A stretch of 64,000 nt of DNA from Marinobacter sp. ATCH36 (lineage in GTDB: Bacteria; Pseudomonadota; Gammaproteobacteria; Pseudomonadales; Oleiphilaceae), in NCBI RefSeq assembly GCF_023555055.1, contig NZ_JAMJPL010000002.1, positions 558,001 to 622,000 of the forward strand, read 5' to 3'. The position numbers and the translations under genes were made by a program. The notes beneath the pieces are model-generated. The model ran no database searches and was not told the origin of the DNA. It saw only the letters and a program-made list of their open reading frames with translations. The first letter of the stretch is position 1. Every line of letters starts with the position of its first letter. Shown in pieces: positions 40,517-63,394 of this stretch.

Positions 40517-40861
40517 TTGGGTAACGAAGAGTTTGATGTCGAATCAGCACAGAATGCGGCGGCTGCCCTCCATCGGGTGCTGGCCGCCAGAACCCATCGT
40601 CGCAAGGTGATGGGGCAGGAAGTGCTTGTGCCCGGGCAATTGGGAGAAGCCCTACACCTTCCCCGCATCATCAGGCAGCTCCAGGGCAAGCAGCTACGGC
40701 AGCGGGAACGAGGGCTCGAGGAATTCCATGAACTTTGGCCAACCCTGTCTGCCGCAACCCGTGAAAAAGTCCTCGATCAGATTGGTTGGTACGACCCGAA
40801 ATCACTGAACTGGGAGGACAAGCGCTCTAACCGTCGCCCCGCTGCTGACTCCGATCAATAA
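40517..40861 (+). CDS. Unknown 114-residue basic protein
   Basis: I do not recognise a family. The frame opens after a stop at 40502 and the first usable codon is TTG 40517; a weak CAGG lies just before it. The protein is soluble, rich in Arg, Gln, Glu and Leu, mostly helical (QLGEALHLPRIIRQLQGKQL, REKVLDQIGWYDPKSLNW) and ends in a charged tail. It is divergent from the AI-2E transporter gene. A start further in cannot be excluded. Confidence 0.55.
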   Translation: MGNEEFDVESAQNAAAALHRVLAARTHRRKVMGQEVLVPGQLGEALHLPRIIRQLQGKQLRQRERGLEEFHELWPTLSAATREKVLDQIGWYDPKSLNWEDKRSNRRPAADSDQ

Positions 40862-41053
40862 CCGCCGACCTCGGAGAATAAGCTCTGGCAGGACTTGGGG
40901 GCAGCGCAGACCTGATCAGCAAGGCCTGCTGATTCAAACAGCCAACGCACTGTTACGTAAACCAAACACACAAAATTTCCATCTGCTTTATCCTGATTGT
41001 TGAAGGCTGAGATTAACCAGCCACGCAACCACTCAGTCAGGACAGTCGATGGC

Positions 41054-41953
41054 ATGCGTATTCTGAGAACCGATGAAGCCCGCTTCGCAGGCCTTCCGGA
41101 TTATCCTTTTTCACCTCACTACCTGGACGTCGAGCCAGGCCTGAGAATGCACTACGTAGACGAGGGACCAAACGATTCAGCACCGGTGCTGATGTTACAT
41201 GGAGAACCATCCTGGTCTTACCTTTACCGACACATGATTCCACTTGTGGCAGAAGCCGGGCACCGAGTCCTGGCCCCTGACCTGGTGGGTTTCGGGAAAT
41301 CCGACAAACCCTCCGAGGTAGCCGACTACAGTTACGACCGGCATATAAACTGGCTTTCCCAGTGGCTGAAAGCACTGGACCTGAAGAACATTACCCTGGT
41401 TTGCCAGAACTGGGGCTCCCTGCTGGGACTGCGCCTGGCGGCGGAGCACCCACAGCTTTTCCGCCGGATTATCGTAGGTAACGGCATGCTACCAACGGGC
41501 GATACGCCGGTGCCCGCCGTGTTTTCCCTCTGGAAAGCCTTTGCCACGCACAGCCCGTGGTTTCCGGTGGGCAGAATTGTCCAGCTGGGCACGGAGAGAG
41601 CCATGAGCAAGGCCGAAATCGCCGCCTACGAGGCCCCTTTTCCAAGCGCCGAATTCAAAGCCGGCGCAAGAGCTTTTCCGAAACTGGTTCCGGTATCGGC
41701 TGATGATCCGTCAAGCGAGGCCAACAAATCCGCCTGGCGTGTTCTGGAAAAATGGAAGAAGCCATTTATAACCTGCTTCAGCAGTGGCGACCCGATCACC
41801 CGGGGCGGTGACCGCTATATGCAGCGACGCATTCCCGGTGCCCACGGGCAACCCCACATAACCCTGCGGGGTGGTCATTTCCTGCAGGAAGACTCTCCGG
41901 ACGATTTCGCGCGCATTATTATCGATGCACTGAAATCAGAGTTGGCCGCCTGA
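41054..41953 (+). CDS. Haloalkane dehalogenase homologue with Asn at the nucleophile position
   Basis: Alpha/beta-hydrolase of the haloalkane dehalogenase subfamily I, 299 residues. The start MRILRTDEARFAGLPDYPF matches the family and fits ATG 41054 with AGGA 11 bases upstream. Visible are HGEPSWSYLYRHM (oxyanion and halide region), CQNWGSLLGL (nucleophile elbow), the acid in SSGDPIT and the base histidine in GGHFLQED. The nucleophile is Asp in characterised enzymes; here the codon at 41408-41410 is AAC, giving Asn119, and the next glycine is Ser. Dehalogenation is therefore doubtful unless Asn is deamidated. Confidence 0.9.
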   Translation: MRILRTDEARFAGLPDYPFSPHYLDVEPGLRMHYVDEGPNDSAPVLMLHGEPSWSYLYRHMIPLVAEAGHRVLAPDLVGFGKSDKPSEVADYSYDRHINWLSQWLKALDLKNITLVCQNWGSLLGLRLAAEHPQLFRRIIVGNGMLPTGDTPVPAVFSLWKAFATHSPWFPVGRIVQLGTERAMSKAEIAAYEAPFPSAEFKAGARAFPKLVPVSADDPSSEANKSAWRVLEKWKKPFITCFSSGDPITRGGDRYMQRRIPGAHGQPHITLRGGHFLQEDSPDDFARIIIDALKSELAA

Positions 41954-54662: not shown

Positions 54663-56027
54663 TCACATACCCAGGTAGGCCTCACGTACTTTCTCATTAC
54701 TGAGCAGTTCCCGGCCGGTGCCTTCAATCACCACTCTTCCGGTTTCAAGAACATAACCACGGTCTGCCAGCGCAAGCGCCTGGGAGGCGTTCTGTTCGAC
54801 CAGGAAGATGGTGATGCCCTCCTCCTTCAGCTCCTTAACGATGTTAAAGATTTCTTCGATGATCAACGGCGCAAGGCCCATACTGGGCTCGTCCATAAGC
54901 AGCAGCCTTGGTTTGGCCATCAGCGCACGGCCCATGGCCAGCATCTGCTGCTGGCCACCGGAAAGCTCACCGGCCAGGTTATGGCGCTTCTGTCGAAGAA
55001 TGGGGAACCTGGTGTACATACGCTCCAGATCCTCCATCACTTCTGGAGTCTTGCCACGGGTATAGGCACCAAGCAGCAGATTGTCGTGGACACTGAGATC
55101 CTTGAACACCTGACGGCCCTCGGGCACCTGCACGATACCATCGGCCACCCGCTGGTCCGACGAGATCTTCGCCAGATCCTTGCCCTCGAACATAATCGTG
55201 CCACGGTCAGTGGGTTGTAATCCGGAGATGGTCATCAGCAGGGTTGATTTGCCAGCACCATTGGCACCCACCAGCGATACGATCTCACCGCTGTTGATTC
55301 GAATATCAATATCGTGGAGCGCTTCAATCTGGCCGTAAGATGTTGCCAGCCCATTGATGGACAGCATTTCCTGCTGGGCGTGCGGCGCGGTCACCCGATC
55401 CACGTGCTTGAGACCCAGCCCGCCAAACCTTTCAGGGGTGTAGCTGACAATCTGGTGACGCAGCTCCCGGAACTCTTCGCGGACCCTCTCACCAAACAAC
55501 GGGTCGTTTTCCACATCCCGCGCTTCGATAATCTGCTGCCAGTCTTCCTCAGTGAGCAGTTTTCTCGCCCGCGGAATAACCACACCTTCTTCCTTGCGGA
55601 TATGCTTACGGAGGGCCTCTGTAAAACGAGCCAGGGCATGACTGAATTCTTCACGCCCTTCCGGCCAGTTCTCTTCGCATTGCGTCAGTAATTGGCGCAA
55701 CTCCACCAGTTTTTCATGGCCTATCACGTAGCCCCTGGCCAGCTTCTCCAGCAGAGGTGCTGTCTCGGGAGACTTCTCACTGAGCCGTTTGTACAGCTCA
55801 ATGTCCGTGGGCGTGCTATGCACCCGCTGGGAGAAATGCTGAATATAATCAAAAATCGTCTTGAACAGCCGCTCATCCGGCCGCTGATCATTGAGGTTCA
55901 TATCGCTCAGAAGCTGATCCAGCAGATCAAGGATCCGCCAAAGCGCCTGATGTTCACGGACGATAATTCGTACGGCCTGCTCACTGCGTGACTGGGCAGG
56001 CGCCATTTCAGTGTGTTGCTCGCTCAT
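54663..56027 (-). CDS. livF: HHE (hemerythrin-like) domain fused to LivF-type ABC ATPase
   Basis: 454 residues against about 235 for LivF. Residues 15-190 are a hemerythrin-like bundle: REHQALWRILDLL (His26), QRVHSTPTD (His70), IGHEKLVEL (His104) and LRKHIRKEEGVVIPRA (His142, Glu146). One Glu expected after His70 is Thr74. A 30-residue linker leads to the ATPase, with Walker A GANGAGKST at 254-262 and signature LSGGQQQML. The start at 56027 has AGGAG nine bases upstream. Methionine 221 could start a free LivF. The remaining sequence is normal LivF. Function of the added domain is unknown; iron, oxygen or NO sensing is inference. Confidence 0.92.
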   Translation of the reverse strand: MSEQHTEMAPAQSRSEQAVRIIVREHQALWRILDLLDQLLSDMNLNDQRPDERLFKTIFDYIQHFSQRVHSTPTDIELYKRLSEKSPETAPLLEKLARGYVIGHEKLVELRQLLTQCEENWPEGREEFSHALARFTEALRKHIRKEEGVVIPRARKLLTEEDWQQIIEARDVENDPLFGERVREEFRELRHQIVSYTPERFGGLGLKHVDRVTAPHAQQEMLSINGLATSYGQIEALHDIDIRINSGEIVSLVGANGAGKSTLLMTISGLQPTDRGTIMFEGKDLAKISSDQRVADGIVQVPEGRQVFKDLSVHDNLLLGAYTRGKTPEVMEDLERMYTRFPILRQKRHNLAGELSGGQQQMLAMGRALMAKPRLLLMDEPSMGLAPLIIEEIFNIVKELKEEGITIFLVEQNASQALALADRGYVLETGRVVIEGTGRELLSNEKVREAYLGM

Positions 56028-62471: not shown

Positions 62472-63260
62472 CTATCCGAAAACCGTTACCGTTTGCCGGC
62501 TCAGCGCTACCAGTTCCCCGCGTGAGGTCCAGATTCCGGCCTGGGTGTGGCCGTATCCTGTGCCGGCTTTATCAATCTTCGCCTTGTACAGCAGCCAGTC
62601 TCCTGGCTCCAAAAATGGCCTGGGATGCACGATATCAAGCGCCCAACTCAGGGAACTGGTTTTCACCCGTTGCTTCACATAGGGCAAAACAGCGGGCGGC
62701 CACGCATCAACGAGAGCAATAATGTGGGCGTCTGAAAAGGTTTCCGGAGTCTTCCTGAATTGCATCCAGCCGCCCAGCTCCCGGCCACCTTTGCCACTGA
62801 ACGGCAGATTACCAAAAGCCCAGCGCATTTCGATCTGTTGAATGAACTCCGGCGTAACTCCCTCGACGTAATCCAATCCTTTGCATTGGCTCACAGGTTT
62901 AGCCTCCGGAGCCGGCAAAGCATCCACCTCCACCTCGGAATCCCTGTCACCGCCAAAACTGGCCAATGCGACCAGTTTTGGCTCACCATTCTGGACGATG
63001 CGGCCCATCACCTGGCTGACAGCCTTGCCTTCCCTCAGGATTTCAGCTTCGACCGTGGCAGGCTCATCCGGTGTTACCGGACCCACGAACGACACCTGCA
63101 TGGACCGCATAGGCCGCCCCGGAGTAACTACATGAGCCATCCGGTCAAACACCAGCGCGGCAACCACTCCTCCAAAGGAGGCGCGCCCCTGGGCCCAGTT
63201 GGACGGGATGGTAACTTCCCCGTTTTTGACCACCTCGTTTATCATTTCATCAAAATTCAT
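62472..63260 (-). CDS. Thioesterase-family (double hot-dog) protein
   Basis: 262-residue protein with acyl-CoA thioesterase TesB-like double hot-dog sequence: WAQGRASFGGVVAALVFDRM and MRSMQVSFVGPVTPDEPATV in the first half, and LSWALDIVHPRPF and GYGHTQAGIWTSRGELVALS in the second. ATG 63260 has GAGG seven bases upstream. Substrate not predictable. It is 87 bases upstream of the MFS gene on the same strand. Confidence 0.85.
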   Translation of the reverse strand: MNFDEMINEVVKNGEVTIPSNWAQGRASFGGVVAALVFDRMAHVVTPGRPMRSMQVSFVGPVTPDEPATVEAEILREGKAVSQVMGRIVQNGEPKLVALASFGGDRDSEVEVDALPAPEAKPVSQCKGLDYVEGVTPEFIQQIEMRWAFGNLPFSGKGGRELGGWMQFRKTPETFSDAHIIALVDAWPPAVLPYVKQRVKTSSLSWALDIVHPRPFLEPGDWLLYKAKIDKAGTGYGHTQAGIWTSRGELVALSRQTVTVFG

Positions 63261-63394
63261 CAACCCGCCTCATTAGCATCCTACCTAGAATAATCAGGAG
63301 CTTGCCCAATATGCGCCCCTAACGCAACAATTGGCTCCGGCAACTACCTACAGCCCCCTCTTTATTTGACGTGTTAAAGATTCAAGAAACCAGT

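Follow-up and report, generated by a model that had tools for sequence, protein, structure and literature searches.

A conserved Marinobacter homologue of haloalkane dehalogenases encodes asparagine in place of the nucleophilic aspartate

Main

Haloalkane dehalogenases (HLDs) form an alkyl-enzyme ester through an Asp, an intermediate that Asn as encoded cannot form. What is a protein of this family for when its gene specifies Asn at that position? The question was raised by a sequence-only reading of the window, the whole 64,000-nucleotide stretch of Marinobacter sp. ATCH36 DNA analysed here, which put forward three possible answers: that the enzyme is dead, that it runs a new reaction, or that it activates itself. 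In HLD catalysis the Asp is the SN2 nucleophile (PMC10503415, PMC6920932), and it belongs to a pentad of Asp-His-Asp plus Trp-Trp (PMC6920932). We compared the Marinobacter protein with solved HLD-I proteins and with relatives in its own and a sister genus, and weighed what the retention of Asn may mean.

Results

An HLD-I homologue with Asn at the nucleophile elbow

The gene and its active-site residues lie in the window as follows.

41054..41953, + strand: HLD-I-like alpha/beta-hydrolase of 299 aa, NCBIfam subfamily 'haloalkane dehalogenase' (PRK00870)
41198..41215, + strand: oxyanion loop H49-G50-E51-P52-S53-W54 (HGEHGW in the NR sub-branch)
41408..41410, + strand: Asn119, codon AAC, at the nucleophile-elbow position
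41411..41413, + strand: Trp120, first halide-stabilising Trp by alignment to PDB HLD-I proteins (Arg in the NR sub-branch)
41531..41533, + strand: Trp160, cap-domain halide-stabilising Trp by alignment (missing in three Asn-type sequences)
41789..41791, + strand: Asp246, the catalytic acid, kept without exception in both types
41876..41878, + strand: His275, the catalytic base, likewise kept without exception in both the Asn and the Asp type

We placed the start at ATG 41054 because Asn-type orthologues begin there with MRILRT. Read from this ATG, codon 41408-41410 is AAC and gives Asn119 within LVCQNWGSLL, at the elbow position that holds Asp in HLDs. In phmmer alignments N119 falls opposite an Asp in all five of the best-matching solved HLD-I proteins (6f9o, 5esr, 4mj3, 2xt0 and 7avr). 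E51, W120 and W160 match their counterparts in solved HLD-I proteins, and D246 and H275 match theirs in the closest three. The sequence-only reading had called Asn in place of the nucleophile, with the other catalytic His and Asp and the oxyanion region present, and each of these calls is borne out. Its contrast between CQNWGS and QDWGG holds for the Asn but not for the Ser, which is not unusual: CQDWGS is the prevailing form among the gammaproteobacterial relatives with Asp.

The protein scores 462.7 bits against NCBIfam NF002043 (PRK00870), for which the cut-off is 265, and a member of the NR branch described below scores 358. Since both lie above the cut-off, automatic pipelines would name both haloalkane dehalogenase. 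An AlphaFold model (mean pLDDT 94.5) aligns to DpcA (6f9o) with a TM of 0.96, and the top Foldseek and PDB matches are all HLD-I. By family model, PDB and Foldseek, the protein is thus an HLD-I homologue in sequence and fold, carrying the catalytic His and acid Asp (H275, D246) and both halide-stabilising Trp (W120, W160); the nucleophilic Asp is absent from it and from 114/114 Marinobacter orthologues.

Asn is fixed across Marinobacter

A strong match to the protein was present in 116 of the 124 species-level Marinobacter genomes examined. We gathered 194 distinct full-length sequences, 114 with Asn and 80 with Asp; the 114 are distinct sequences, not species, as the genome sets overlap. All Asn sequences in this set come from Marinobacter, and residue 119 is Asn in every one of the 114 distinct Marinobacter orthologues at the syntenic locus. 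Independent assemblies agree, and the Asn is not a sequencing error. Asp occupies the position in all five of the solved HLD-I enzymes nearest to this protein and in about 80 related genes. A 68% paralogue elsewhere in the same Marinobacter genome has Asp, and an Asp paralogue is present in many Asn-carrying genomes. In three Marinobacter genomes (G010, G035 and G101), the Asp-type HLD paralogue is disrupted by stops or frameshifts.

The Asn codon is AAC in 101 of the 114 sequences and AAT in 13. Its third base underwent 11 silent changes on the tree, and the first-base A-to-G change that would yield Asp occurred in none of the 114; transitions at comparable silent sites average about 21-22. 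Because codon 119 shows silent changes but no A-to-G, Asn itself is selected within Marinobacter. Median pairwise dN/dS is 0.095 for Asn proteins that retain Trp120 (W-type), 0.115 for the W120R branch and 0.074 for the Asp paralogues. With dN/dS near 0.1 and His275 and Asp246 invariant, the gene is functional by these sequence measures and its protein is under purifying selection.

Scanning 369 genomes of the class and 392 of the order with YTNNTNTGYCARAAYTGGGG returned no real match to an Asn elbow outside Marinobacter and its sister genus, the remaining matches being short unrelated frames; the scan detects only L-x-C-Q-N-W-G and would miss divergent Asn types. Within open-access coverage, no paper found in our literature search describes an HLD that naturally has Asn as its nucleophile residue.

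Asn and Asp alternate in the sister genus

The sister genus of the same family, which holds Marinobacter mangrovi (G868), has the orthologue in 5/6 species, all five syntenic. Two encode Asn (G652, G865) and three encode Asp (G866, G868, G869). Closely related species carry one type or the other, their pentads otherwise unaltered, suggesting that here Asn and Asp may be functionally equivalent, as deamidation would allow. The sequence-only reading had allowed that orthologues might all carry Asp and this one be a sequencing error; they do not, but these three do have Asp.

A single origin of Asn did not survive this sampling. The first trees gave one Asn clade (98/87 with column 119 masked), with the syntenic Asp orthologue of M. 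mangrovi outside it; with the sister genus included and the column masked, three Asp/Asn changes are needed. Direction models with and without reversal are indistinguishable, differing by about 1 in log-likelihood. The safest statement from these sequences is that at least three Asp/Asn changes have occurred at this one locus, with Asn fixed in Marinobacter. Such changes were seen at no other locus among those examined.

The His-Asp pair is kept while the halide site varies

H49, G50, W54, D246 and H275 are invariant across 116 Asn and 82 Asp sequences, and in W-type Asn sequences the remaining pentad residues are intact. W120R occurs in five sequences of one branch (NR), together with a change from HGEPSW to HGEHGW. 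This branch retains Asn, His and Asp, and one member is predicted to adopt the HLD-I fold (AlphaFold pLDDT 90.1; TM 0.93 to 6f9o). W160 is replaced in three Asn sequences, by L, L and C. Halide Trp loss is seen only in Asn proteins and in none of the 82 Asp proteins, despite the longer tree of the latter (19.7, against 11.4 for Asn). The contrast comprises 3-4 events, with p about 0.02-0.05 by tree length on our own estimate, and is suggestive, not strong.

A conserved leader precedes the gene

41034..41053, + strand: conserved 5' leader CAGTCAGGACAGTCGATGGC, immediately upstream of the ATG

This leader is nearly invariant in Marinobacter, also at wobble positions of the upstream frame; over 109 loci, most of its bases are more than 90% conserved. 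Its architecture is CAGTC-AGGA-CAGTC-GATGGC, in which direct repeats flank a Shine-Dalgarno-like AGGA. Searches of four genomes allowing up to 3 mismatches found it only once in each, and it was not seen in the sister genus. It is possibly a translational control element.

A shared locus with a linked thioesterase

40517..40861, + strand: conserved small ORF upstream (ORF114), a marker of the syntenic locus, with no Pfam or NCBIfam match
62472..63263, - strand: TesB-like acyl-CoA thioesterase, tail-to-tail with the HLD-like gene in most relatives

The locus runs HDOD, ilvD, (peptidoglycan-binding), AI-2E, ORF114, HLD-like gene, convergent TesB-like thioesterase and DEAD-box helicase; its conservation across many assemblies rules out contamination or misassembly. 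In many relatives a small Cys-rich ORF (about 80-95 aa, CGHC...CC) follows ORF114 and precedes the HLD-like gene or the helicase, in one case (L251) about 100 bases past ORF114. The thioesterase is present in 90/124 Marinobacter genomes and in 0/8 of those without the HLD-like gene, where ORF114 is followed by the helicase. Fisher's test of this co-occurrence gives about 1e-5 on approximate counts of 88/112 vs 0/8, uncorrected for shared ancestry.

In the window and a minority of relatives, a phenylacetate (paa) cluster from 41993 to about 62384 (paaY, G, H, I, J, K, A onwards, transporter, paaX, MFS) separates the HLD-like gene from the next shared genes. Its position between genes that adjoin in most relatives suggests insertion or local gain. 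paaA occurs in 68/124 genomes, vs 116/124 for the HLD-like match, and five genomes without the HLD-like gene have paaA. Co-occurrence and synteny rule out membership of the phenylacetate pathway, and the neighbouring paa genes, adjoining in a minority only, are there by chance. Within the cluster's transporter, ORF 54663-56027 fuses a hemerythrin-type domain to a LivF-like ABC ATPase.

Discussion

We place about even confidence in the reading that this is an HLD-I-fold protein whose nucleophilic Asp became Asn and which selection keeps for a role outside SN2 dehalogenation. We favour Asn as a working residue, in a putative reaction or in ligand binding, a view backed by its strict conservation in Marinobacter and by the Trp120-less branch. 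Asn119 would be unable to form the alkyl-ester intermediate; it may act instead through hydrogen bonding, holding a ligand or intermediate in position beneath the cap, and the His275-Asp246 dyad could activate water or serve as general acid/base. A candidate substrate would be a lipophilic ester, lactone or acyl compound, our guess from the hydrophobic HLD pocket and the linked acyl-CoA thioesterase. Because the attacking Asp is encoded as Asn, the database name haloalkane dehalogenase is probably wrong for the Marinobacter protein. Three points count against the reading: the Trp-loss contrast comprises only 3-4 events, invariance of His and Asp is no proof of catalysis, and the sister-genus alternation, with the pentad otherwise kept, suggests that the two residues may be interchangeable there.

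A pure pseudoenzyme, binding a ligand or partner or acting as a sensor without any chemistry, would explain the missing nucleophile, the exchange of Asn and Asp tolerated in the sister genus and the erosion of the halide site in some lineages. The invariance of His275 and Asp246 in 116 Asn sequences, however, is more than a scaffold seems to need, and we judge this reading unlikely, if a serious contender.

We are more sceptical of a self-activating dehalogenase, in which the active-site His and water would hydrolyse Asn119 to Asp after folding to give a normal HLD-I, the Asn codon specifying a slow-maturing proenzyme. Pries and colleagues (1995, cited in PMC3005927) reportedly found engineered DhlA Asp124Asn to be activated by hydrolytic deamidation. 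That precedent, set in the same Q-N-W context, favours the idea, as do the otherwise intact pentad of W-type sequences and the presence in the sister genus of both residues at a single syntenic locus. Yet none of the 114 Marinobacter sequences has changed to Asp, though one transition would be enough; the W120R branch, hardly able to dehalogenate, still keeps Asn; and many of these genomes also hold the Asp paralogue. More doubtful still is a natural family whose Asn-encoded nucleophile is autocatalytically deamidated to Asp, related species alternating between ready-made Asp and self-maturing Asn.

A decaying or misread gene, its Asn either an artefact of sequencing or a sign of pseudogenisation, is scarcely credible: one frameshifted copy (G101) and the gene's absence from eight Marinobacter genomes point that way, but assemblies agree, dN/dS is 0.095 and ORFs are intact. 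Among the outcomes that the sequence-only reading had left side by side, decay therefore falls to genus-wide conservation and low dN/dS, self-activation fits the sister genus, and a new, non-dehalogenase role is favoured by the kept Asn, the invariant His-Asp pair and the Trp losses.

Family models would give the name haloalkane dehalogenase to roughly a hundred Marinobacter proteins, or more, whose encoded nucleophile is missing. Nearly every species of the genus carries this conserved Asn-type protein. The natural occurrence of both residues at a single syntenic locus provides a set of proteins with which to ask whether deamidation can bring an active-site Asn to maturity in nature. The same set may show how an SN2 hydrolase turns to another function with its His-Asp pair kept.

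Among known systems, the HLD-I enzymes DpcA (6f9o), DmrA (4mj3), DccA (5esr), DppA (2xt0) and DhlA are homologous to the protein over its full length, DpcA with 56% structural-alignment identity at TM 0.96. W-type members share with them the catalytic His, the catalytic Asp, two Trp and the oxyanion-loop Glu; they differ at the elbow, where the solved enzymes read CQDWGG with Asp as nucleophile and the Marinobacter protein reads CQNWGS with Asn. OleB, a beta-lactone decarboxylase, exemplifies an HLD-like protein recruited to a different reaction (PMC10503415); it is described as HLD-III-like. Marinobacter DmxA (5mxp) and DatA are also HLDs in which one pentad residue is naturally unusual (PMC6920932), but in both the change affects a halide-stabilising residue rather than the nucleophile, both are active, and DmxA is an HLD-II. 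The closest parallel in the substitution itself is DhlA Asp124Asn, with the same change at the homologous elbow residue and the same following Trp; whereas that variant is a laboratory mutant, the Marinobacter Asn arose in nature, is found throughout the genus and has been maintained in evolution.
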